Source of the DNA: Histomonas meleagridis
Lineage: Eukaryota; Parabasalia; Tritrichomonadida; Dientamoebidae
Length of the DNA stretch: 64,000 nucleotides
NCBI GenBank assembly: GCA_020186115.1
Contig: WSYJ01000149.1
Coordinates: 620,001-684,000, forward strand
Direction: 5' to 3'
The notes under the pieces are model-generated. The model searched no databases. It saw only the letters and a list, made by a program, of their open reading frames with translations, and was not told the origin of the DNA. This document shows, piece by piece, positions 4,306-47,563 of this stretch (position 1 is the stretch's first letter; each line of letters starts with the position of its first letter). A program made the translations under genes and the position numbers.

Positions 4306-4561
4306 TGTAAATAGTCACTTTTCATTTTCATATTTTTCTTCTGCTTTGCAGTAACACATCTTTCTTTAAATGCCTTGACTAAATTAACAATATATACAAA
4401 ATTGTCGAACTTATTTTCTACAAAACAAGTTTAAATTATCGGCTGATTGAATTATCTTTTGTGAATAGATTCTGTAAATTTAGATGGAGATTTACATATG
4501 TACTTTGTTTTTTTGTTACACAACATGCTGTATAAATTAGGTATCAAAAGTTTTAATTTAT

Positions 4562-15447: not shown

Positions 15448-17282
15448 TTATTTAGACATTTTTTTATTAAGTAATTCTAATATTTCTGGTTTATTAGATG
15501 CTAAATTAAGTGCTGTTTTAAATATTTTAAATAACTTCCAACCATTATTTTGAAACATCAAATTATTTATAAAAATATTAAATAAAACGAACAAATATTT
15601 ATAGTCTTAATATCAATTCCTTCTTGTTCGAGAAGTAATTTAACTATTTCCGTATTACCATTAGAAGATGCCAATATAAGAGCCGTATTAAATAATTCGA
15701 ATAACTTCCAAATATTATTTTGAAATCCAAAATTATTAAAATGAAATATAAATAAAAGAAGAAAATATCTTTAGTATTAATATCAATTCCTTCTTGTTGA
15801 AGAAGTAATTTAACTATTTCTGTATGTTCATTTTCAGATGCCCAAATAAGTGCTGTTCTAAATAATTTAAATTATTTCCAAATTATATTTAATAATATTA
15901 AATTATAAATATAAATTTTTTATAAGGCATTTAAATATCTTTTATACTAATATTAATATCTTTTTGTTGAAGAAGTATTTTAACTATTTCTGTATGACCA
16001 TTTTGTGATGCTTTTATTAGTGCTGTCCTAAATAATTAAAATAATTTCTAAATATTATTTTGACATATAAAATTATTAAAATAAATATTAAATTAATAAA
16101 ATAAATATATAATAAAATAAATAAATATCTTTTGCGTTAATATCAATGTCTTTTTGTTCAAGAAGTATTTTAATTACTTCTAAATGACCATATTCAGATG
16201 CTTTTATAAATGCTGTATTAAATAATTTAGATTATTCCCAAATGTTATTTTGAAATATAAAATTACTTAAACAAATATTAAATACAACAAGTAAACATCT
16301 TGTGCATTAATGTTAATATTTCTTTTTTGTAATAAAAACAATTTAACTATTTCTATATGACCTTTTTCAGATGCTTTTAAAAAAGATGTATTAAATATTT
16401 TATGTAATTTCCAAATATTATTTAGAAATATAATATTATTTATAAAAATATTAAATAAAACAAAAAAATATCTTTAGCATTAATATCAATTCCTTCTTGT
16501 TCAAGAAGTAATTTAACTATTTCTGTATGACCATTAGAAGATGCCAATATAAGTGCCGTATTAAATATTGTATATAATTACCAAATATATTTAAATAAAA
16601 ATTAAATAAAGTAATTATTTATCTTTAGCATTAATATTCATTCTTTTTTGTAATAAAAGTAATTTAACAATTTCTATATGACCTTTCTCAGATGCTTTTA
16701 TAAGTGCTATATCAAACAAAATCGATAATTTCCAAATATAATTTTGAAATACCAAATAATAAAAATAAATATTAATTAAAACATATAAATATCTTTCACA
16801 TTAGTATCAATTCCTTCTTGTTCAAGAAGTAATTTAACTATTTCATTATTTCCATTCCTTGATGCAAACGTAAGTACTGTTCTAAAATATCCAAACAATT
16901 TCCAAATATTATTTTGAAATATCAAATTATTAAAATGAATTTTAAACAAAACACATTAATATCTTTAGCATTAACATCAATTCCTTCTTGTTCAAGAAGT
17001 AATTTAACCAATTCCGTATTATCATTTTTGGATGCCAATATAAGTGCCGTATTAAATAGTTCAAACAATTTCCAAATATTATTTTGAAATATCAAATTAT
17101 TAAATTAAATTTTAAACAAAATAAATAAATATCTTTAGCATTAACATCAATTCCTTCTTGTTCAAGAAGTAATTTAATTATTTCCGCATGATCATTTTTG
17201 GATGCCAATATAAGTGCTGTATCAAATAAATTAAATAATTTCCATAAAAAAAAGTCAAACAGATTAACAATCAAATAAACAT
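15448..17282 (-). repeat. Array A: 11 ankyrin modules separated by interrupted AT-rich spacers
   Basis: Read on the minus strand from 17250, eleven modules follow at a period of about 155-185 bp. Each is near NTALILASKNGHTEIVKLLL then EQEGIDINAKD, and none has a stop or frameshift. They start near 17250, 17060, 16890, 16725, 16565, 16395, 16225, 16040, 15865, 15690 and 15520. The last is short and ends with its own stop at 15448-15450 (EILELLNKKMSK). Spacers of about 60-90 bp begin after KDI with ATATTT-like text and end with a conserved AATATTTGGAAATTATTT stretch. Nine of the ten spacers stop in the KDI frame; the other (module 9 to 10) only changes frame. The modules probably continue the 17283-18482 protein if the spacers are removed. 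Confidence 0.8.
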
Positions 17283-18482
17283 TCAATTAATTATAGAAAC
17301 ACTTTTGCCGTGAATATTTATAATATTTTCTTTAATCAAATAGTCAAACAGTTCTTTATTTTCAAAAATTATTGAAGTTTCAAAAAAATTTATAGAAATC
17401 AGATTTTTTTCATGAAAATATTGAGCCAAAAATGTATTTCCTGTTTCTATAGATTTAATGATCAAAACTTTATTAACTTTCATCCATTCTCTTTCAAGAA
17501 ATGATAAAATTTCATAATTATAATATGAAACACATATATTTCCTAACTCTCCTAAATTGTTGATTTTTTCTATTTTATTTTCATAAAGATAATAAAAGAT
17601 TTCATTTCTATGAAATTCAATTGCTGCTTTATATGCATCTTTAAATGATGAATGATGTTGTTCACATAAATGAATGATTTCTTCATTTCCACCTGCAACT
17701 GCATATTTACCTGTATTTTCTACTTTTGCACCATTCATGAGTAAATATTTAAAACATTGAACTGATGAAAAAAATGCTGCATAATCAATTAATGTAACAT
17801 TATTTTGATTAATAAATGAATATCTTTCATAAAGTGATGGTTCAATTGTTTGATTAAAATCAAAATTTGTTTGTGATGATATTTCTTGAAGTTTTTCGAA
17901 TTCATCATTTCGGATTATTTTCGCAATTTTATTGGGATTAACTCCTTCTTTAACATATTTCTTATGAAGTTCCCAATCATTCTTTTTTAATTCTTTAATG
18001 TTTTCATTAAAATTTTGATAAGGTTTAATATCTTCAATTTTTTTATATTCTTCTTCTGAAAGATAATGTGCGAAATATAGATTTCTTTTATTTCCTAAAA
18101 TTTTGGGTTGAATAATTTCCTGTTCAATCATTTTTCCATAAAGATAGTTTGACTCTTGTGTATAATATGTATGATTTAAATATGATATGAAAACATTTAT
18201 TACGTTATTATGTAAATTATTATAAATTTCATTTTCTTTTAATTCAAGCGCTCTTAAATATTCCAAACATATTTGATAATGACCTTGTGAAACAAAATAT
18301 GAAAATAAAGTTGAGCAAATAATGAAATTAAATGAATATGAATATTTTTCATTAAAATATTTTAAGATTAATTCAACTGAAGCAATAATATTATCATTAT
18401 TTAAGTCAAAAATAATGTGCTCTATGGTGTTCAATATTTGAAGATTTTTGCTGAATTTCGTTTGACTTCCCAAGTTCCCCAT
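17283..18482 (-). CDS. DUF3447-type ankyrin protein, N-terminal part (locus A)
   Basis: A 399-codon frame from ATG 18482. After a helical N-terminal region of about 185 residues (EHIIFDLNNDNI, YSYSFNFIICSTLFSYF) comes the trichomonad DUF3447 region: WELHKKYVKEGVNP, DFNQTIEPSLYERYSF, VTLIDYAAFFSSVQCFKYLL and GKYAVAGGNEEIIHLCEQ. It ends in ankyrin-like segments (NKELFDYLIKEN). The frame closes exactly where the first spacer of the downstream array begins: its last residues INIHGKSV line up with DVNAKDI of the modules. The real product may therefore be longer. Family role is unknown beyond ankyrin-type binding. It is a close paralogue of the gene at 24822-26015. Confidence 0.85.
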   Translation of the reverse strand: MGNLGSQTKFSKNLQILNTIEHIIFDLNNDNIIASVELILKYFNEKYSYSFNFIICSTLFSYFVSQGHYQICLEYLRALELKENEIYNNLHNNVINVFISYLNHTYYTQESNYLYGKMIEQEIIQPKILGNKRNLYFAHYLSEEEYKKIEDIKPYQNFNENIKELKKNDWELHKKYVKEGVNPNKIAKIIRNDEFEKLQEISSQTNFDFNQTIEPSLYERYSFINQNNVTLIDYAAFFSSVQCFKYLLMNGAKVENTGKYAVAGGNEEIIHLCEQHHSSFKDAYKAAIEFHRNEIFYYLYENKIEKINNLGELGNICVSYYNYEILSFLEREWMKVNKVLIIKSIETGNTFLAQYFHEKNLISINFFETSIIFENKELFDYLIKENIINIHGKSVSIIN

Positions 18483-22476: not shown

Positions 22477-24821
22477 TTATTGGTTTTCAAGTAATTGAGC
22501 GATATCTGTGTGCCCATTTTTAGTTGCCAAGAGAAGTGCTGTATTAAATAATTTAAATAATTTCCAAGTATTATTTTGAAATATCAAATTATTAATAAAA
22601 ATATAATATGAATTAAACAAATACCTTTAACAGTGATATCAATTCCTTTTTTTTCAAGAAGTAATTTCACTATTTCAATATAACCATTTTTAGAAGCCAT
22701 CATAATTGCTGTCCAAAATATTTCAAATAATTTCCAAATATTATTTTGGAATAAGAAATTATTAAAATAAGTTTTAAATAAAATAAATTAATGTTTTTAA
22801 TATTAACATCGATTCCATTTTGTTTGAGAAGCAATTTAACAATTTCTGTATTACCATTTTGAGATGCATATAAAAGTGCTGTATTAAATAACTTATATAA
22901 TTTCTAAATATAAAAAACGAAGTTCAACTATCAACAGAACAAATGCGTATTTTGAATGTTAGTATTAATTCCTTCTTTTTTAAGAAGCATTTGAATTATT
23001 TCTAAGTAATCATTTTGTGCTGCAGAAATAAGTGCTGAATTAAATGATCAGAATTATTTTTAAAAACTATATTGAAATACCATATTATAAAATTAATCAT
23101 TTAATAAAATAATTGTATATCACAAGCATTAATATCAATTTCTTCTTGCTCAAGAAGTAATTGAACTGTTTCTTTGTGACCATTTTTAGTTGCTAAAAGA
23201 AGTGCTGTATTAAATATTATAAATAATTTCCAAATATTAATATGAAATTCCAATATATAAAAATAAATCCTAAATAAAATGAATAAATATCTTTCGCATT
23301 AATATCAATTCCCTTTTGTTCAAGAAGTAACTGAACAGTTTCTAAATTACCATTTTCTGATGCATACATAAGTGCTGTTTCAAATAATCCAAATAATTTC
23401 CAAATATTATTTTGAAATATGAAATTATCAAAACATATATCAAATAAAATAATTGAATATCTTTTGCATTAATATCAATTCCCTTTTGTTCAAGAAAGAA
23501 TTGAACAGTTTCTAAATTACCACTTTCAGATGCAAACATAAATGCTGTACGAAATAATCCAAATAATTTCCAAATATTATTTTGATATATCATATTATCA
23601 AAACAAATTACAAATAAAATAATTGAATATCTTTTGCATTAATATCAATTCCCTTTTGTTCAATAAGTAATTTAACTATATCTTTATAACCACCTATAAT
23701 AGCAAACATAAGCGCTGTTCTAAATAATATAAATAATTTCCAAATTTTATTTCAAAACATCATATTATTAAAACAAATTTTAAATCAAACAAACAAATAT
23801 CTTTAGCATTAACATCAAGATCTTTTCTATCAAGAAGTAATTTAACTACTTTATAATGGCCATTTTTAACAGCTAAACTAAGTGCTGTTTTAAAAAAATT
23901 TAATAATTTCCAATTTTTTTTATTGAACATCAAATAATTTAAATAATTTATACGTAAAGTAAATAAATATTTTTAATATTTACATCACATTTTTTTTGTT
24001 CAAGAAGTAATTGAACCACTCTCGAATTCCCTTTTTCAGCAGCCAGCATAAGTGCTGACATAAATAAATCAAATAGTCATCAAATATTATTTCAAAATGT
24101 GAAATTATTACAATAAATTCTGAATAAAATTTATAAACAGCAACAGCATTAAGATCAATATTTTCTTGTTCAAGAAGTAATTTAACTACATGAACATTAC
24201 CTTCTTTAGTAACAGCTGCTTTTATAAGTGCTGTTTCAAATGATATGAATAATTTGCAAATATTATTTTGAAACATAATATTATTAAAATATATTTTAAA
24301 TGAAATAATTAAATATCTTTATAGTTGATATCAATCTCATCGTGAAAATTATCAAGAAGATATTTAACTAAATCAGCATTACCTATTTGAGCTGCACATA
24401 AAAATATTGTTTTAAATATTTAAAATAATTCCCAAATCGCACTTTGAAACGAATAATTTAATAAACAAATTACAAATAATTAATATAAATAGGTAATATT
24501 ATAAAGAAATTTCTCTTGTTTTAACATCGATATACTTCTTTTCAAAAATTAACTTCACTACATCTAATCTACCACATTGAACTGCTTCGAATAGTGCTTC
24601 AACAAATATTAAGTTCAAATTTTAACTTTTTAATAAATATATCAAAACTTTTAAACAAATTTTTTTATGAGCTATGTGGAGTCCAATATGTTCAAGAATT
24701 ACTTTTACTAAATCAATGTAGCCCTTACCAGCTGCTTTACATAGTGCAGATTCAAATATTTTGAATAAATTCCAAATAAAATATGCAATTATAATATATA
24801 AATAAAAATAAATAAAAATTA
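22477..24821 (-). repeat. Array B: 14 ankyrin modules separated by interrupted AT-rich spacers
   Basis: The same architecture as array A. Minus-strand modules start near 24755, 24605, 24415, 24245, 24065, 23900, 23725, 23550, 23380, 23205, 23040, 22890, 22715 and 22540. All are free of stops and frameshifts although they have diverged strongly; compare module 1 (ESALCKAAGKGYIDLVKVIL), module 3 (KTIFLCAAQIGNADLVKYLL) and module 9 (ETALMYASENGNLETVQLLL). The last reads HTDIAQLLENQ and ends at its own stop, 22477-22479. The spacers I followed stop or shift frame. The array continues the protein at 24822-26015 if the spacers are removed. Confidence 0.8.
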
Positions 24822-26015
24822 TTAACATTTTTCATACTTAAACTTAATATATCTATTGCTTTTAAGGTAATTTAAAACTTCATCATTTCCCGAAAATGTC
24901 AAAATCTCATAAACATATATTTTAGTAGGCTTTTTTTGAAGTAAATATTTTAAAAGAAATAAATTACCAGTTTGAATTGCCTTAATCATAAATGACTTAT
25001 CAATTTCCATTCCTTTACTTTCTAAAAATGAGAAAATTTCAAAGTTGTTGTTTGTAATACATTTTTTCCCTAACGAAACTAAAAATTTAATTTCAATTAA
25101 TTTGTTTTCATAAAGATAATTAAATACATCATTCCGATGAAGCATAATTAACGCTTTACATGCATCTCCAAATTTTAAATGATTTTGTTCACATAAATGA
25201 ATTACCTCTAAGTTACCACCTGCAGCTGCATATTTCCCTGTATTTGTTGTTTTGCACTCATTTAATAGAAAATATCTAAAACATTTAACTGCTCCAAAAA
25301 ATGCTGCATAATCAATTAATGTTATATTTTTATTATTAATAAATGAACATCTTTCATAAAGTGATGGTTCAATTGTTTGATTAAAATCAAAATTTTCTCT
25401 TGATGATATTTCTTGAAGTCTTTCGATTTCATCATTTCGGATTATTTTCGCAAGTTCACCTGGATTAATTCCTTCTTTAATTAATTTTTTATGAAGTTCC
25501 CAATCATTATTTGATAGTTCATCATAATGTTCTGATATGAAATCACTAAAATCTGTTTTATATAAATCATTTTCATCGTTTATATACACAAAATATGGTA
25601 ATTTTTTGTACCTGAGTTTGTCTGTACAAATCATTTCGTTTTCAACCATTTTTTCAAGAATATAACTTGATTCTTGAGTTTCTTTATAAATAAGAAGATG
25701 ATCTATAAAAATATCTATAATAGATTTACATGTATTGCCCATAATTTCTCTTTCTTTTGTTTGAACTATTTTTAAAAAATCAAAACATAATTTATAATTA
25801 TCTTTTGATACAAAATATGAATACAAGAATCTGCAAATAGCTAAATTAAATGAATAAGAATATTCTTTGGAAAAAATATTCATAATCAAACCGACAGATT
25901 CATTAATATTTTCTTCATTTAAATCAAAAATAATTTGTTCAATAGACTGTAATGTTTCCATGTTTTCGTTATTATTGCCTTTTATTTTTCTTTTGCTTCT
26001 AAAAGGTAAATTCAT
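24822..26015 (-). CDS. DUF3447-type ankyrin protein, N-terminal part (locus B)
   Basis: A 397-codon frame from ATG 26015, a clear paralogue of the gene at 17283-18482. Shared landmarks are EQIIFDLNEENINES, EYSYSFNLAICRFLYSYF, WELHKKLIKEGINPGELAKI, DFNQTIEPSLYERCSFI, NITLIDYAAFFGAVKCFRYF and GKYAAAGGNLEVIHLCEQ. The first 20 residues are basic (RSKRKIKGNN). The frame ends at YIKFKYEKC, the point equivalent to DVNAKDI of the modules, so it closes at the first spacer just as in locus A. A CACTTTTT octamer lies 57 nt upstream in sense (GTCACTTTTTATTTATT). The two loci face the same way, 4 kb apart, and look like a segmental duplication that has since diverged. Confidence 0.85.
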   Translation of the reverse strand: MNLPFRSKRKIKGNNNENMETLQSIEQIIFDLNEENINESVGLIMNIFSKEYSYSFNLAICRFLYSYFVSKDNYKLCFDFLKIVQTKEREIMGNTCKSIIDIFIDHLLIYKETQESSYILEKMVENEMICTDKLRYKKLPYFVYINDENDLYKTDFSDFISEHYDELSNNDWELHKKLIKEGINPGELAKIIRNDEIERLQEISSRENFDFNQTIEPSLYERCSFINNKNITLIDYAAFFGAVKCFRYFLLNECKTTNTGKYAAAGGNLEVIHLCEQNHLKFGDACKALIMLHRNDVFNYLYENKLIEIKFLVSLGKKCITNNNFEIFSFLESKGMEIDKSFMIKAIQTGNLFLLKYLLQKKPTKIYVYEILTFSGNDEVLNYLKSNRYIKFKYEKC

Positions 26016-33346: not shown

Positions 33347-36300
33347 TCATTTACCATTCAAATAGATTGGTTTGTTTCCAAATGTAAAACTTGAAGATGT
33401 TGCATCCTTCTTCTCATTTGTTTCTATTGGTTTGTTCCCAAATGTGAAACTTGAAGTTGTTGTATCCTTCTTTTCATTTGTTTCTATTGGCTTGTTTCCA
33501 AATGTAAATCCAGTGGATGTTGTATCCTTCTTTTCATTTGTTTCTATTGGCTTGTTTCCAAATGTAAATCCAGTGGATGTTGTATCCTTCTTTTCATTTG
33601 TTTCTATTGGCTTGTTTCCAAATGTAAATCCAGTGGATGTTGTATCCTTCTTTTCATTTGTTTCTATTGGTTTGTTCCCAAATGTAAATCCAGTGGATGT
33701 TGTATCCTTCTTTTCATTTGTTTCTATTGGCTTGTTTCCAAATGTAAATCCAGTGGATGTTGTATCCTTCTTTTCATTTGTTTCTATTGGCTTGTTTCCA
33801 AATGTAAATCCAGTGGATGTTGTATCCTTCTTTTCATTTGTTTCTATTGGCTTGTTTCCAAATGTAAATCCAGTGGATGTTGTATCCTTCTTTTCATTTG
33901 TTTCTATTGGTTTGTTCCCAAATGTGAAACTTGAAGTTGTTGTGTCTTTCTTTTCATTTGTTTCTATTGGCTTGTTTCCAAATGTAAATCCAGTGGATGT
34001 TGTATCCTTCTTCTCATTTGTTTCTATTGGCTTGTTTCCAAATGTAAATCCAGTGGATGTTGTATCCTTCTTTTCATTTGTTTCTATTGGCTTGTTTCCA
34101 AATGTAAATCCTGAAAATGTCGCATCCTTCTTTTCATTTGTTTCTATTGGCTTGTTTCCAAATGTAAATCCTGAAAATGTCGCATCCTTCTTTTCATTTG
34201 TTTCTATTGGCTTGTTTCCAAATGTAAATCCAGTGGATGTTGTATCCTTCTTTTCATTTGTTTCTATTGGCTTGTTTCCAAATGTAAATCCAGTGGATGT
34301 TGTATCCTTCTTTTCATTTGTTTCTATTGGTTTGTTCCCAAATGTGAAACTTGAAGTTGTTGTGTCTTTCTTTTCATTTGTTTCTATTGGTTTGTTTCCA
34401 AATGTGAAGCTTGAAGTTGTTGTGTCTTTCTTTTCATTTGTTTCTATTGGCTTGTTTCCAAATGTGAAACTTGAAGTTGTTGTGTCTTTCTTTTCATTTG
34501 TTTCTATTGGCTTGTTTCCAAATGTGAAACTTGAAGTTGTTGTGTCTTTCTTTTCATTTGTTTCTATTGGCTTGTTTCCAAATGTAAATCCAGTGGATGT
34601 TGTATCCTTCTTTTCATTTGTTTCTATTGGCTTGTTTCCAAATGTAAATCCTGAAAATGTCGCATCCTTCTTTTCATTTGTTTCTATTGGCTTGTTTCCA
34701 AATGTAAATCCAGTGGATGTTGTATCCTTCTTTTCATTTGTTTCTATTGGTTTGTTCCCAAATGTGAAACTTGAAGTTGTTGTGTCTTTCTTTTCATTTG
34801 TTTCTATTGGTTTGTTTCCAAATGTGAAGCTTGAAGTTGTTGTGTCTTTCTTTTCATTTGTTTCTATTGGCTTGTTTCCAAATGTGAAACTTGAAGTTGT
34901 TGTATCCTTCTTTTCATTTGTTTCTATTGGCTTGTTTCCAAATGTAAATCCAGTGGATGTTGTATCCTTCTTTTCATTTGTTTCTATTGGCTTGTTTCCA
35001 AATGTAAATCCAGTGGATGTTGTATCCTTCTTTTCATTTGTTTCTATTGGTTTGTTCCCAAATGTGAAACTTGAAGTTGTTGTGTCTTTCTTTTCATTTG
35101 TTTCTATTGGCTTGTTTCCAAATGTGAAACTTGAAGTTGTTGTGTCTTTCTTTTCATTTGTTTCTATTGGTTTGTTCCCAAATGTGAAACTTGAAGTTGT
35201 TGTGTCTTTCTTTTCATTTGTTTCTATTGGCTTGTTTCCAAATGTAAATCCAGTGGATGTTGTATCCTTCTTCTCATTTGTTTCTATTGGCTTGTTTCCA
35301 AATGTAAATCCAGTGGATGTTGTATCCTTCTTTTCATTTGTTTCTATTGGTTTGTTCCCAAATGTGAAACTTGAAGTTGTTGTGTCTTTCTTTTCATTTG
35401 TTTCTATTGGCTTGTTTCCAAATGTAAATCCAGTGGATGTTGTATCCTTCTTCTCATTTGTTTCTATTGGCTTGTTTCCAAATGTAAATCCAGTGGATGT
35501 TGTATCCTTCTTTTCATTTGTTTCTATTGGCTTGTTTCCAAATGTAAATCCTGAAAATGTCGCATCCTTCTTCTCATTTGTTTCTATTGGCTTGTTTCCA
35601 AATGTAAATCCAGTGGATGTTGCATCCTTCTTCTCATTTGTTTCTATTGGTTTGTTTCCAAATGTGAAACTTGAAGTTGTTGTGTCTTTCTTTTCATTTG
35701 TTTCTATTGGTTTGTTTCCAAATGTAAATCCAGTGGATGTTGCGTCTTTCTTCTCATTTGTTACAGGTTTTGTTTCTGCTGTTTGATTTAAAAATGTAAA
35801 CCCTGAAAATGTTGTGTCTTTCTTTTCATTTGTTTCTATTGGTGTGTTTCCAAATGTAAATCCTGAAAACGATGCATCTTTCTTTTCGCTTGTTTCTGCT
35901 TTAACTTCTGTTGTTTTATTTAGAAATACAAGACCTGGTGCTGCTGATGCTTCTTTCTTTTCAGTAGCTGAAGAAGTTGTTTGACTACCAAATTTAAATT
36001 CTGATACTGGTGCTGCTGATGTTGCTGATGCTTCTTTCTTTTCACTTGAAGATATTGTTTGGCCTCCGAATTTAAATTCTGATACTGGTGCTGCTGATGT
36101 TTCTTTCTTTTCTGTTGCTGAAGAAATTGTTTGACTACCAAATTTAAATTCTGATACTGGTGCTGCTGATGTTGCTGATGCTTCTTTCTTTTCACTTGAA
36201 GATATTGTTTGGCCTCCGAATTTAAATTCTGATACTGGTGCTGCTGATGTTGCTGATGCTTCTTTCTTTTCACTTGAAGATATTGTTTGGCCTCCGAATT

Positions 36301-36805
36301 TAAATTCTGATACTGGTGCTGCTGATGTTTCTTTCTTTTCTGTTGCTGAAGAAATTGTTTGACTACCAAATTTAAATTCTGAAACTGGTGCTGCTGATGC
36401 TTCTTTCTTTTCTGTTGCTGAAGAAATTGTTTGGCCTCCAAATTTAAATTCTGAAACTGGTGCTGCTGATGTTTCTTTCTTTTCACTTGAAAAAATTGTT
36501 TGGCCTCCAAATTTAAATTCTGATACTGGTGCTGATGATGTTTCTTTCTTTTCACTTGAAGAAATTGTCTGATTAATGAATTTGAAACCTGATGTTTCTG
36601 TTTTTTCTTTTGTTGTTGGCACCGAATTGATTTCTGTATCTTTAACTTCGGATTTATTTTTATTTGTGAAATTCTTTTTAAAATCGTGTGGTAGAATTTC
36701 TGGTTCATTAATTCCTTCCAAATCATCTGTACCTGACTTTAAAGGAAGCTGTTTAAACCCCCAATCAATTTTTTCTTTATTTGTAAGAAGAGGAATTTTT
36801 CTCAT
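33347..36805 (-). CDS. FG-repeat protein, probable nucleoporin
   Basis: A 1152-aa protein from ATG 36805 (an upstream TTG is rejected). After about 75 residues of unique text (RKIPLLTNKEKIDWGFKQLP) come about ten imperfect repeats built on FKFGGQTISS and EKKEASAAP. About 40 near-identical 20-residue repeats follow, built on FTFGNKPIETNEKKDTTSTG. Phe-Gly pairs separated by charged, Ser/Thr-rich spacers are the hallmark of FG nucleoporins that form the pore's permeability barrier. The Lys/Asp/Glu-rich spacers resemble FxFG-type proteins such as Nup2/Nup50/Nsp1, but no structured anchor domain is present, so the exact Nup cannot be named. It is divergent from the gene at 36897 with 91 bp between. 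The repeat number is probably polymorphic. Confidence 0.8.
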   Translation of the reverse strand: MRKIPLLTNKEKIDWGFKQLPLKSGTDDLEGINEPEILPHDFKKNFTNKNKSEVKDTEINSVPTTKEKTETSGFKFINQTISSSEKKETSSAPVSEFKFGGQTIFSSEKKETSAAPVSEFKFGGQTISSATEKKEASAAPVSEFKFGSQTISSATEKKETSAAPVSEFKFGGQTISSSEKKEASATSAAPVSEFKFGGQTISSSEKKEASATSAAPVSEFKFGSQTISSATEKKETSAAPVSEFKFGGQTISSSEKKEASATSAAPVSEFKFGSQTTSSATEKKEASAAPGLVFLNKTTEVKAETSEKKDASFSGFTFGNTPIETNEKKDTTFSGFTFLNQTAETKPVTNEKKDATSTGFTFGNKPIETNEKKDTTTSSFTFGNKPIETNEKKDATSTGFTFGNKPIETNEKKDATFSGFTFGNKPIETNEKKDTTSTGFTFGNKPIETNEKKDTTSTGFTFGNKPIETNEKKDTTTSSFTFGNKPIETNEKKDTTSTGFTFGNKPIETNEKKDTTSTGFTFGNKPIETNEKKDTTTSSFTFGNKPIETNEKKDTTTSSFTFGNKPIETNEKKDTTTSSFTFGNKPIETNEKKDTTSTGFTFGNKPIETNEKKDTTSTGFTFGNKPIETNEKKDTTTSSFTFGNKPIETNEKKDTTTSSFTFGNKPIETNEKKDTTTSSFTFGNKPIETNEKKDTTSTGFTFGNKPIETNEKKDATFSGFTFGNKPIETNEKKDTTSTGFTFGNKPIETNEKKDTTTSSFTFGNKPIETNEKKDTTTSSFTFGNKPIETNEKKDTTTSSFTFGNKPIETNEKKDTTTSSFTFGNKPIETNEKKDTTSTGFTFGNKPIETNEKKDTTSTGFTFGNKPIETNEKKDATFSGFTFGNKPIETNEKKDATFSGFTFGNKPIETNEKKDTTSTGFTFGNKPIETNEKKDTTSTGFTFGNKPIETNEKKDTTTSSFTFGNKPIETNEKKDTTSTGFTFGNKPIETNEKKDTTSTGFTFGNKPIETNEKKDTTSTGFTFGNKPIETNEKKDTTSTGFTFGNKPIETNEKKDTTSTGFTFGNKPIETNEKKDTTSTGFTFGNKPIETNEKKDTTSTGFTFGNKPIETNEKKDTTTSSFTFGNKPIETNEKKDATSSSFTFGNKPIYLNGK
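33361..35760 (-). repeat. 60-bp tandem repeat, 40 units, no indels
   Basis: Forty consecutive units of exactly 60 bp, all in phase. Three main variants alternate: plus-strand aatccagtggatgttgta (TTSTG), aaacttgaagttgttgtg (TTTSS) and aatcctgaaaatgtcgca (ATFSG). Blocks of the same variant order recur, which points to multi-unit duplication. Because the period is a multiple of 3 and stop-free on the other strand too, a long antisense frame is open here. Confidence 0.95.
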
Positions 36806-42875: not shown

Positions 42876-43626
42876 TGATTTTCATATTATATAAAATTTT
42901 TACAATAATAAATCAGTATAAATTAATGTTTCTAATTTTTTAATAGCAAAATTTTTGAGGGGTTTCATACGTACCCAACTGAACAAATCAATAAAATGAT
43001 TACAACCATTGTTAAACTTTAACAGTGAAATGGAACTTGGTATTTGTTTACTTTAGTCTATGTATGCATATACAATATGGATTATATACATAATATAGTT
43101 TGGATAAAAATATTCAAACTAAATAATAATGTATATACAATATATATTATATATAAAGTCGCCTTGAAAAAATGTCTACTTTCAAACAACTATGAAAAAT
43201 TAATTTTAAAATTCTAAATATTTTTACAGCATTTTATTAGCAATTTTTTCATAATGAAATGATTCATGATGTATACCTCTTCTTTCTATAGAAAGACAGC
43301 GCTAACATTTTCTCTTAGTTTTCAACAAATTCAAAAATAAATAATTTTTAAATATATCATTAATAATGCATAATTATAGAATAGATAAATTAATATTAAT
43401 TTTATTTTAAATTCTAATTTTAAATAAATTTACTTTTAAGATATCATGCATGATTATATATTCATTCCATGTAAAAAATTTAAATAAAAATATCTTATAT
43501 GCACTCAATAATAATCTTCAAATATATTTTATTCATTGTTCAAAACATTCCAAAAATTTTGCTGATGTCAAATTTAAAACAAAGAAATTTCATGTGAAAA
43601 CAAACAAAGATAGTCAATTTTTCAAA
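42876..43626. other. intergenic, no gene seen
   Basis: AT-rich DNA upstream of the RPT5-like locus. The RPT5 frame is open for about 59 codons upstream of ATG 43627, but that text is not RPT5-like. Confidence 0.4.
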
Positions 43627-44553
43627 ATGGATGATTTCACAAACTGGATCATAGATGATCAAATAAAAAAAATGGAACAAAAATCAGCGAAAGAAATTGA
43701 ACAACAAAACATGATACTCGAAAACAAAATCAATGCATATCGTAACATGGTACGTCAATACCAAAATCAAAAGACTCATATGGAAGAAGATATTCGTTCC
43801 AATAATGAAAAGATACGTCTTAACCGTACACTTCCATTTCTTGTTGCTCATGTTGTTGAAGTACTTTCACTTGATTCTGATGAATCTTCTGATAGTGTTT
43901 ATCGTGGACTTGACTCCAAGTCCGCCGTTGTCAAAACCACTACTCGTGAGACAGTTTTTCTCCCTGTTCCTGGATTAGTTGATGCATCAGATCTTCAGCC
44001 ATCTGATATGGTTGGACTTTCCAAAGATTCATATCTCATATTTGAGAAGCTTCCCCAACATTTTGATTCACGAGTGAAAGCCATGGAAGTTGATTCCAAG
44101 CCGACTGAAACGTATGATCAAGTTGGTGGATTAGAAAAACAAATCCAAGAACTTAAAGAAGCAGTAGTTTTACCTCTTATATCTCCCTCCAAAGAGCGTA
44201 TTAAGAAGCTTGGAATCCAACCACCGAAAGGACGGCCCGACACACTTGACCCCGCACTGATGAGGTCCGGGAGATTGGACAGGAAAATAGAGCTGCCGCT
44301 ACCGAATGAAGACGCGCGGGTGCAAATATTGGAAATCCATTAGCGCAAAATGAAGACGGGCAACGACGTTAACTTTAGGGAGTTGGCGAGATCGACAGAA
44401 GACTTTAATGGAGCAATGCTAAAGGCTGTGTGCGTCGAGGCGGGAATGGTGGCATTAAGAAGAAACGCAGACGAAATCGTACATAATGATTACGTAGAAG
44501 GAATAGCACAGGTGCAGGCAAAGAAAAAGGCTGTGTTGGATTACTTCGCATAG
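43627..44553 (+). pseudogene. RPT5: 26S proteasome ATPase RPT5 (PSMC3) copy with the ATPase core deleted
   Basis: From ATG 43627 the frame follows RPT5: coiled coil, LPFLVAHVVEVLSLD, TTTRETVFLPVPGLVDASDL, SRVKAMEVDSKPTETYDQVG and GIQPPKG. At about 44229 it jumps directly to RPDTLDPALMRSGRLDRKIE. Roughly 125 residues are missing in frame, including Walker A, Walker B and sensor segments. A TAG at 44341-44343 replaces the residue expected between EIH and RKM. Beyond it the frame resumes ([20 protein letters not shown]) and ends in the HbYX-like tail DYFA at 44553. The sequence 3' of the jump is much richer in GC than the 5' part. It cannot be a working ATPase as it stands; an assembly deletion or chimera is possible. 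Confidence 0.85.
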
Positions 44554-44689
44554 TTTAGAGATATATTTATAAATGTTTGAAATGTTTGATATGTAATGGT
44601 GGAATAGGGAATTGAATCATTAATATAATTTTCGTTTCGAGAAAGATATTATTTGGGTTACCTGCACTCAATGCTGAGCTTATATTTGT

Positions 44690-44930
44690 ATTATTATATT
44701 ATTATATTATTATATTATTATATTATTATATTATTATATTATTATATTATTATATTATTATATTATTATATTATTATATTATTATATTATTATATTATTA
44801 TATTATTATATTATTATATTATTATATTATTATATTATTATATTATTATATTATTATATTATTATATTATTATATTATTATATTATTATATTATTATATT
44901 ATTATATTATTATATTATTATATTATTATA
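44690..44930. repeat. 8-bp satellite (TTATTATA)n
   Basis: About 30 perfect copies of an 8-bp unit, TTATTATA, with no interruption. The period keeps all frames open in a monotone Tyr/Ile/Leu text, which is not a gene. It separates the RPT5 pseudogene from the TBP promoter. Confidence 0.95.
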
Positions 44931-46027: not shown

Positions 46028-46205
46028 TATAGATAAGAATTGGTTTTAATGTCAAAGACATTTTTTGTGTTATATATAATGTTTATTTTGATAATTTTGG
46101 CTTTAAAAATAATTCTTGGAAATCATTTAAAATATTTAAAACAGCGCTTGAATCTGCAACTATGTTCTGTAGGACAGAGATTGCTGTTAAAAACAATTGT
46201 TTCCG
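46028..46205 (+). pseudogene. Relic ankyrin module with spacer
   Basis: Directly after TBP the plus strand reads GFNVKDI, then spacer-like text with AATAATTCTTGGAAATCATT, then KTALESATMF and a decaying second half. This is the module-spacer-module junction of the DUF3447 arrays, here isolated and in the opposite orientation to loci A and B. It has no start and no intact neighbour. Confidence 0.5.
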
Positions 46206-47563
46206 AAATAAAAAGAAATTGCTATCAATGTTAAAAACATTTTTGAAATAATACAAATCTATACATTAATAAACAATTGTAAATTATACTTTGTGACGAC
46301 TTTTATCGGCTAGCCGATGCCCATTTATGAAACTATCTAATAACGACTCACTGCGAACCAAATGTTTTTAATAAAAATTTTTTCAATTTTTTCGTTACTG
46401 GGGAGGAATCTGTTTTCATTGAAATAAGATGACAGAAATAATTTCATTGAAACAAAACGGTTTTAATAATTTTTAAATTCAAATATCTTTATTTATTATC
46501 ATTAAATCAAATATTTTTTTAAATTATGATATAAATTTTAGTTATTAAGTGTTTTTAAATCATTCATTATTTTCAAGATAATCTATTTTTCGAGATACGT
46601 GAAATCGCATTCAATTTTTGACGGTTTTGAAATTTCATATATATTATATATATAAAATAAGATCTATAATATTATAATAGATTCTGAAATATTTCATTAA
46701 TATTGTATTTAGAATTAATTTTTTTCCTCTTCTTTTTTTTTTTTTGAATTATTTCTTAAAATTTATAATACGTAGTACACTTATTTCTTTGTGATAAAAA
46801 TGCATAATAAATTAAATTATTTAATGTATACATTATAACAAGATTAAATGAATATGGTAAATTAAAATCAAATATTTTTGTTGTATGTTTAGCTAACAAA
46901 TTTATATTTTCTTCTGTTAGATTCATTATGATTTATTCAAGCTCAGATGATAATTCTAGTTCTATGTTTTGGGGATATATTTTTTTCTTTTTTACTTGAA
47001 TTTGTTTTGCGTTTTCGCATGTTCTCCCAAATACTATATGCCATGGTTTAAGTCAATAGTTTATTGAAAAAGTGCGTTAAGTATCCATTTATAAAAAGGA
47101 TACTCGAATCAAAGCAAAATACGTAAGTCTATTTGTTCTGGTTTATATGTTGGCATTTCTTCTCCTGTCTTTGTTCATAAAATCTTTTTTAGCAAGTATA
47201 GTAAAATAAGGTCTTATCAAATCCTAAGGAAAAACCAAATACACTATATAATACAAATTATTTTTCAATATTACAATTTGATCTTCGCCATATCAAGCAA
47301 ATACACACTCAACTCTATACCAACCAATTACAATTTCAATGAAATTAATAATACTTTTCTCAGACACAATATATGTTGGTCTCACTTTTTTTACTCCAGA
47401 AAATTGAAGCTTGTGTTTTAAATCATGTTACTTTCGGATTCTGATTCAATTGGCATTTTTTGATCAGTGTTGTTATCAATTTTAACGATGTTTGTTCGAT
47501 TTTGAATTTTCACATCACATAACTGATTTTAGCTTTGGTCGTTAAATTTGGTAAAAATTCCAT
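46206..47563. other. AT-rich intergenic region with a DUF3447 relic
   Basis: Apart from the relic at 46775-46965 I see no gene. A short run of T and several A/T homopolymers are present, with an AAAAAGTG copy near 47070. Confidence 0.4.
46775..46965 (-). pseudogene. Relic of a DUF3447 gene N-terminus
   Basis: The minus strand reads SSELE, a stop, then IIMNLTEENINLLAKHTTK and PYSFNLVIMYTLNNLIYYAF. This corresponds to IEQIIFDLNEENINES and YSYSFNLAICRFLYSYF near the start of locus B. A stop lies inside it and the rest of the gene is absent, so this is a degraded copy. Confidence 0.5.

Follow-up and report, generated by a model that had tools for sequence, protein, structure and literature searches.

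Introner elements are many near-identical intron-like elements within one genome. Introns without GT-AG ends occur in nuclear protein genes of diplonemids and euglenids, protists that possess a spliceosome, and tend to pair their two ends (PMC12621601, in the part available to us). Among parabasalids, Trichomonas vaginalis has 63 active introns, short non-coding elements with GT/AG ends and a branch site fused with the 3' motif, so that their 3' signals have a fixed spacing (the accessible parts of PMC12316389 and PMC6679479). Histomonas meleagridis, a parabasalid parasite of poultry, has a genome with a GC content of 28.7% (PMC8529796, in the portion consulted). Here, we analyzed a window of 64,000 nucleotides (nt) of this genome (contig WSYJ01000149.1, positions 620,001 to 684,000), in which an open reading frame (ORF) with a DUF3447 domain is followed by eleven ankyrin modules separated by short spacers (locus A). 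Locus A is probably one gene with 12 coding segments, from which the spacers would be removed as short introns lacking GT-AG ends. We give about an even chance to a new class of nuclear introns, namely several thousand AT-rich elements of 50–90 nt that have neither GT-AG ends nor a branch motif nor pairing of their ends, would be identified by a 3' block at a fixed distance and would be removed from the transcripts of a diversifying family of recognition proteins, in a parabasalid regarded as nearly intron-free.

The Histomonas spacers resemble the diplonemid and euglenid introns in the absence of GT-AG ends and in their location in nuclear protein genes of a protist with a spliceosome; unlike those introns, they are near-copies within one gene family, with one place per repeat, and have no supported fold, their folding energies being those of shuffled sequences. 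With the introns of T. vaginalis they would share the phylum, the nature of short non-coding elements and the fixed spacing of 3' signals, but they lack the T. vaginalis motif and number from several to a dozen per gene. Compared with introner elements, they are known at the repeat junctions of one family (other genes being unsurveyed) and were multiplied together with the module. The likeness to trichomonad DUF3447/ankyrin proteins lies in a first exon that matches PF11929 and in modules of the EIVKLLLEQEGIDINAKD type; contiguous repeats are possible in this family (L056; T. foetus P0024), whereas the sampled arrays are interrupted at 113 of 120 junctions. We found no description of such interrupted ankyrin arrays in the open-access papers searched on Histomonas, on trichomonad or parabasalid introns, on ankyrins or on non-canonical introns.

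Stop codons and the edges of the modules

The genome searched comprised 43.28 Mb in 121 contigs, the window lying in contig C84. Arrays were sampled from 20 stretches of 10 kb, picked by a 27-base spacer word, and from the window. After the exclusion of arrays with fewer than four modules, the sample consisted of 27 arrays with at least four modules, 236 modules and 200 complete spacers, from which spacers beside partial modules and unit distances outside 120–200 had been left out. In the stop test, only single-base departures from the commonest codon were counted, and the expectation was derived from the spacer's own mutation spectrum. For the measures of divergence and of the ratio of nonsynonymous to synonymous differences (pN/pS), units with gaps were excluded and 105 of 249 units were kept.

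In the 173 full modules of the 27 arrays, five one-step stops were observed against 48.9 expected (sd 6.3), a tenfold depletion, and none of the 21 window modules tested contained a stop. Within the spacers, the observed and expected numbers were 57 and 77.6 in the frame of the preceding module, 57 and 73.8 in that of the following module, and 49 and 62.5 in the third frame, a slight deficit that is much alike in all three. Judged by these counts, selection acts against stops in the modules, and none of the three spacer frames is maintained as protein.

A preliminary description of the window had noted eleven intact ankyrin modules behind the DUF3447 frame, ten spacers between them, nine with an in-frame stop and the tenth with a change of frame, and a short last module with its own stop, all of which hold: the eleven modules of locus A are open and the last ends at the stop codon 15448–15450. 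Its argument that lesions fall only in the spacers is weak as it was worded. Spacer stops in themselves mean little, since 94% of shuffled spacers of like composition carry one in frame, and the absence of stops from the modules is the part not due to chance. Moreover, the spacers are homologous and 74 of the 140 spacers of 80 nt have a stop at one shared codon, so the lesions of locus A are not nine independent events and spacer stops are largely one inherited stop.

The module ends sharply. Codons 1–31 of the units with 80-nt spacers contain two stops in total, while codons 32, 33, 34, 35, and 36 contain 8, 6, 0, 7, and 7 stops in 140 units, i.e., tolerance of stops starts by codon 32. Codons 30 and 31 are unable to turn into a stop in one step and the last informative module codon is therefore codon 29. 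Codon 31 is strongly constrained (site heterozygosity.03/.06/.11) and varies in the 63-nt spacer type. At the other edge, the codon before the first module codon T1 is variable like the surface codons and had no stop in 200 units against 13.0 expected from site frequencies, the codon at -2 is mostly TTT and uninformative on stops, and those at -3 and -4 are stops in 7/200 and 13/200. On this stop pattern, the coding piece would be (F)-x-TAL...KD-I, and in the usual unit neighbouring pieces would lie about 71 nt apart.

The same counts bear on the idea that the arrays are dead, i.e., a truncated gene followed by a satellite of modules plus spacers. Module and spacer form a single tandem unit with a period of ~170 bp, the units are homogenised, relic modules lie below position 15448, and pN/pS over all codons averages 1.00, as this idea would have it. 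It is hardly credible in view of the stop depletion, which affects the modules and not the spacers of those very units, and of the hypervariable codons 5 and 8, in which no stops were found where 29.3 and 34.6 were expected from base frequencies.

Selection also differs by codon class. With their own synonymous sites as reference, pN/pS was 0.72 (0.62–0.90) at the 25 steadier codons and 1.48 (1.19–1.93) at six variable codons that were chosen post hoc; the ratio of 2.56 obtained for these six against overall pS is flattered by that choice. Codons 5 and 8 vary most, followed by 28, 9, 12, 11, and 4, which, except for 28, presumably sit in the turn and first helix, the target-binding part of ankyrin repeats. 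For codons 8, 9, and 28, which we take to match the design positions of ankyrin binders, pN/pS reached 1.66 (1.30–2.30). The family looks like a varied set of recognition proteins.

Exon 1 and its modules as a candidate single gene

The DUF3447 frame (hereafter exon 1) gave 107 listed matches in the genome, of which 94 have no internal stop (2,286 first-look candidates, 104 scored). Behind 13 intact exons 1, the frame is interrupted by 113 of 120 spacers. In the comparison of arrays by the state of their own exon 1, modules without a full start were excluded, as were arrays cut at distances outside 120–200 and, from the main count, two edge arrays at stretch ends. Flagged as broken were 1 of 110 internal modules in the 13 arrays with an intact exon 1, and 7 of 56 in the 12 arrays in which exon 1 is broken or missing (p = 0.002); counted by arrays, broken modules occurred in 1 of 13 and 6 of 12 (p = 0.03). 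With the two edge arrays counted as not intact, the latter class had 7 of 66 broken modules (p = 0.005) in 6 of 14 arrays (p = 0.08). Modules thus tend to decay where their own exon 1 is dead, which argues for one gene rather than for silent donor cassettes.

Such cassettes would be a library of modules copied into expressed genes by gene conversion, with the spacers serving as blocks of homology. The likeness of units throughout the genome, their similar divergence within and between regions, and the concentration of variability in surface codons all suit a library of this kind; its modules, however, would have little reason to show a tenfold depletion of stops or to depend on the adjoining exon 1 for their integrity. 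No spacer-less junction of the common type turned up in the genome at up to three mismatches, in a search that possibly skipped common words, and the spacer-less pattern AAAGAT-N3-24-ACAGCACTT gave 21 matches against 27 in the control, with the same reservation about common words. We consider the cassettes unlikely. The missing common-type copies speak as well against the elimination of spacers from the DNA in part of the cells. The related possibility that modules are expressed from separate short transcripts meets the rarity of start codons, as an ATG in frame with the next module occurs in 14 of 200 spacers. Both are highly unlikely, and the modules used separately that had initially been offered as the other interpretation of locus A are disfavoured with them.

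The spacer-less junctions that were seen are diverged ones adjoining a first exon (L053–L056). In the H. meleagridis paralogue L053 the sequence runs ...NTKN-V-L-F-E-SPLMKA..., and in its relative P0004 N-V-M-F-E-SAL. The succession V/I, L/M-F-x, then T/S-A/P-L is what results from joining codon 31 to the end of a spacer. Ankyrin repeats usually carry G where this junction has F; the L codon at the junction tolerates stops in the arrays. In L056, ordinary repeats of the family are contiguous and joined by four linker residues, against five in L055 and seven in L054, the last six of which are like a spacer end.

Taken together, the depletion of stops, the frames interrupted behind intact exons, the dependence in cis and the spacer-less junction suggest that exon 1 and its modules function as a single gene, from which the spacers have to be removed. 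The gene of about 12 one-module segments initially proposed is backed in this respect by the stop depletion, the sharp module edge, the dependence in cis and the spacer-less paralogue. Its intron part is a step further: that removal takes place at the RNA level, by which machinery and at which exact points is what we infer.

The spacer as a putative intron

Spacer length, taken as the distance between codon 31 and the next T, was 80 nt in 141 of the 200 spacers and 63 nt in 20, and ranged from 44 to 100 nt in the rest; the lengths leave remainders of 2, 0, and 1 modulo 3 in 157, 30, and 13 cases. At locus A, the spacer core has 52–91 nt, typically 71. Stops are present in the frame of the upstream module in 139 and in that of the downstream module in 75 of the 200 spacers. 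The 5' part of the spacer evolves at 1.15 (1.04–1.37) times the synonymous rate and is able to lose 17 bases or gain 20, while the 3' block (columns 132–158), TTTCAAAATAATATTTGG, evolves at 0.50 (0.44–0.62) times that rate (40 resamplings of regions). TTTGG is found in 166/200 spacers, in 136 of which it begins 26 nt upstream of the next module. The divergence of spacers equals synonymous divergence overall and is similar within and between regions, therefore conservation of the whole spacer is not proof of function, only the 3' block falls below the synonymous level, and the likeness of spacers across the genome mostly reflects concerted evolution. With one mismatch allowed, the genome contains the 27-base word 2,705 times (reversed control 0), and the word is present in 119 of the 200 sampled spacers, which gives a rough total near 4,500 spacers, the sample itself having been picked by that word.

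In the proposed mechanism, locus A would consist of the DUF3447 exon followed by 11 segments of one ankyrin repeat each, with the true stop in the eleventh, and the spacers would be non-coding and removed before translation, most likely from the pre-mRNA. The 5' cut would fall after codon 30 or 31 of the module, because codon 31 is constrained overall, yet variable in the 63-nt type, and the 3' cut within about three bases upstream of the F and x5 codons that precede the next TAL. The predicted joined sequence leads from a module end ...AAAGATATT to TTTNNNACAGCA of the next module. The block TTTCAAAATAATATTTGG is a probable recognition signal, with the 5' part free to drift, and translation would yield a long solenoid of ankyrin repeats with a binding surface that differs between genes. 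We judge removal at the RNA level through recognition of the 3' block to be the best reading of the sequences. Each of the alternatives (bypassing, frameshifting, cassettes, and dead arrays) does less well in one test or more.

A number of observations weigh against it. The published annotation of H. meleagridis counts 573 introns, at most one per gene (PMC8529796, in its available part). In 8 of 200 spacers, a GT close to the 5' edge was combined with an AG at the 3' edge (scored in the 12 nt before the x5 codon), and 6 of 200 had a branch-like CTAAC or CTAAT motif. The U2 small nuclear RNA (snRNA) encoded in this genome keeps GTAGTA, which we take to be its branch-binding stretch. Folding of 126 distinct 92-nt sequences gave an empty consensus, and the energies of 60 of these 126 equalled those of mononucleotide shuffles (mean z 0.14). 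The cis comparison consists of 25 arrays and one threshold. The excess of synonymous change in modules that the preliminary description had looked for is absent in its plain form, as pN/pS over all 31 codons is 1.00 (0.88–1.25), and protein-level selection is apparent from the stops and from the separate codon classes rather than from the average. Some DUF3447-sized frames continue into one or more modules (open frames 512–611), and the protein P0057 from ENA metagenomes reads through spacer 1 in frame. Of the 25 matches in one protein search, 23 were ENA ORFs, many of which contain linkers of the 63-nt type that stay in frame, and 16 of the 34 listed P0042 matches that span both linkers have no stop. 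Finally, a minority of spacers (14/200) are open and in frame, and their translation is a live rival.

Folding of the bare spacer consensus at -8.7 kcal/mol was no better than that of shuffles, the pairing of the two ends alone being unscored. The genome contains a Prp8 domain and two U2 genes. The 3' splice motif of the T. vaginalis type, ACTAACACACAG, had three exact matches in 43 Mb (control 2), and a looser trichomonad intron pattern 12 matches, against 171 for the control. With only three occurrences of ACTAACACACAG in a genome that has the Prp8 domain and U2, either the species must have a different consensus for canonical introns or such introns are very rare.

In a further rival, the 63-nt in-frame type of spacer would be translated as a linker of ~21 residues, and the 80-nt type would be a derived defect or a recoded form. 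Relatives have open in-frame linkers (...NNVYFNNLIFQNNIWNFFKLF-TAL...) across up to three modules, and 196 P0042-type matches exist in the genome, with the stop-free rows mentioned above among those listed. The other 18 of the 34 carry stops, although this capped list is ranked by score; ORF calling and ranking both favour open ones. In the unranked sample, 8 of 20 63-nt spacers contained a stop, the neutral expectation being 8.3, compared with 6 of 173 modules (p = 6e-6). Among 120 spacers of intact genes, 14 have a stop in place of the TGG of the conserved block, and the 141 spacers of 80 nt are out of frame. A translated linker of this kind is thus improbable. Also rejected, on the stop counts, was translation of the spacer in phase with the module that follows, a frame in which the consensus is open and the variation by codon phase module-like.

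Recoding is the other possibility acting at translation. The ribosome could skip the spacers on an unspliced mRNA, for which phage T4 gene 60 and the byp elements of Magnusiomyces mitochondria are precedents of bypassing, or slip frame within them. The usual 80-nt spacer needs a -1 change, the consensus offers a T TTA AAA heptamer readable in frame, and the downstream frame has fewer stops than the upstream one. However, the heptamer includes two of the unit's more variable positions, 108 and 110 (consensus 63% and 56%), every residue modulo 3 is represented among the spacer lengths, the downstream frame acquires new stops just as the other two do, and no hairpin is supported, which makes recoding quite unlikely. 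A specific candidate, in which a slippery heptamer and a downstream hairpin would cause a -1 frameshift, suited the consensus well and was rejected for the variable heptamer, the lengths that do not keep frame and the unsupported fold.

Further members of the family were retrieved from ENA metagenomes. P0004, P0008, and P0042 have best matches in the genome of merely 71%, ~55%, and 72% identity and therefore derive from another organism or organisms; a protein search with part of P0004 gave one other protein besides P0004 itself. The 17 ENA proteins that reach the end of exon 1 (P0002–P0015, P0017, P0018, and P0021) are 39–55% identical to locus A, and 14 of them end at or soon after the codon-31 point, a contig end and a stop not being separable in every case. 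P0008 and P0013 cross a spacer of usual length out of frame, as does P0004 after one further in-frame module, and P0008 aligns through its own spacer with many H. meleagridis loci, often with one stop. In the arrays of P0042–P0064, spacers read in frame as linkers of the VYFNNLIFQNNIWNFFKLF type, in part also in H. meleagridis.

Loci A and B and the meaning of the arrays

The exon 1 of locus A matches PF11929 (E 9.4e-10, 38.8 bits against a cut-off of 26.9; exon 1 only), and its putative end was positioned by eye against the modules. The open DUF3447 frame itself (17283–18482, 399 codons) extends four codons past that end to a stop at 17283–17285. In the ten full modules, T1 lies at positions 17220, 17050, 16880, 16710, 16559, 16389, 16216, 16026, 15856, and 15686, and in the terminal one at 15516 (all on the minus strand). 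A second locus of the same build, locus B, occupies positions 22477–26015 (Table 1).

Table 1. Segments of loci A and B in the window; exon and spacer assignments follow the proposed one-gene structure
Feature	Positions	Strand	Remarks
Locus A, putative exon 1	17298..18482	-	DUF3447 frame with own ATG; ends at equivalent of module codon 31
Spacer 1	17227..17297	-	between exon 1 and module 1; holds stop of DUF3447 frame; resembles other spacers
Module 1	17128..17226	-	TALILASKNDHAEIIKLLLEQEGIDVNAKDI; includes two preceding codons (F, x5)
Spacer 2	17057..17127	-	in-frame stop
Module 2	16958..17056	-	
Spacer 3	16887..16957	-	in-frame stop
Module 3	16788..16886	-	
Spacer 4	16717..16787	-	in-frame stop
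Module 4	16618..16716	-	
Spacer 5	16566..16617	-	short type; unit 151, 1 mod 3; in-frame stop
Module 5	16467..16565	-	
Spacer 6	16396..16466	-	in-frame stop
Module 6	16294..16395	-	one extra codon, frame preserved
Spacer 7	16223..16293	-	in-frame stop
Module 7	16124..16222	-	
Spacer 8	16033..16123	-	long type; unit 190, 1 mod 3; in-frame stop
Module 8	15934..16032	-	
Spacer 9	15863..15933	-	in-frame stop
Module 9	15764..15862	-	
Spacer 10	15693..15763	-	no in-frame stop; frame changes (170-nt spacing)
Module 10	15594..15692	-	
Spacer 11	15523..15593	-	in-frame stop
Module 11 (terminal)	15448..15522	-	TALNLASNKPEILELLNKKMSK; short; own stop codon 15448–15450
Locus B, putative exon 1	24822..26015	-	second DUF3447 frame, built alike
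Locus B, array	22477..24750	-	13 open modules and short terminal module with own stop; like spacers between

Past the terminal stop of locus A, relic ankyrin modules, some with stops or frame changes, extend from 15447 down to ~14757 on the minus strand, as if an older or longer array had decayed. A solitary, decayed-looking unit of spacer plus module lies at 46064–46232 on the plus strand, far from the DUF3447 frames of the window. Elsewhere, the window encodes a protein with ~40 tandem 20-residue repeats of the FTFGNKPIETNEKKDTT type (33347–36805, minus strand), which presumably resembles an FG nucleoporin. A further frame (43450–44343 and 44689–44930), in our view similar to a proteasome AAA ATPase, jumps from PPKG to RPDTLDPALMRSGR, apparently without its middle part, and is followed downstream by a 30-copy tract of TATTATTA.

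If the spacers are spliced, a single gene family of Histomonas would hold more introns than the 573 counted genome-wide (PMC8529796, in the part available). These introns would break the rules of gene finders and aligners, so that a large family would stand annotated as truncated proteins, and they would form a dense natural collection for asking what splicing needs besides GT-AG. If they are not spliced, another process must skip the spacers, which would be stranger still. For the parasite, the arrays suggest a large ankyrin repertoire with a binding surface that varies between genes.

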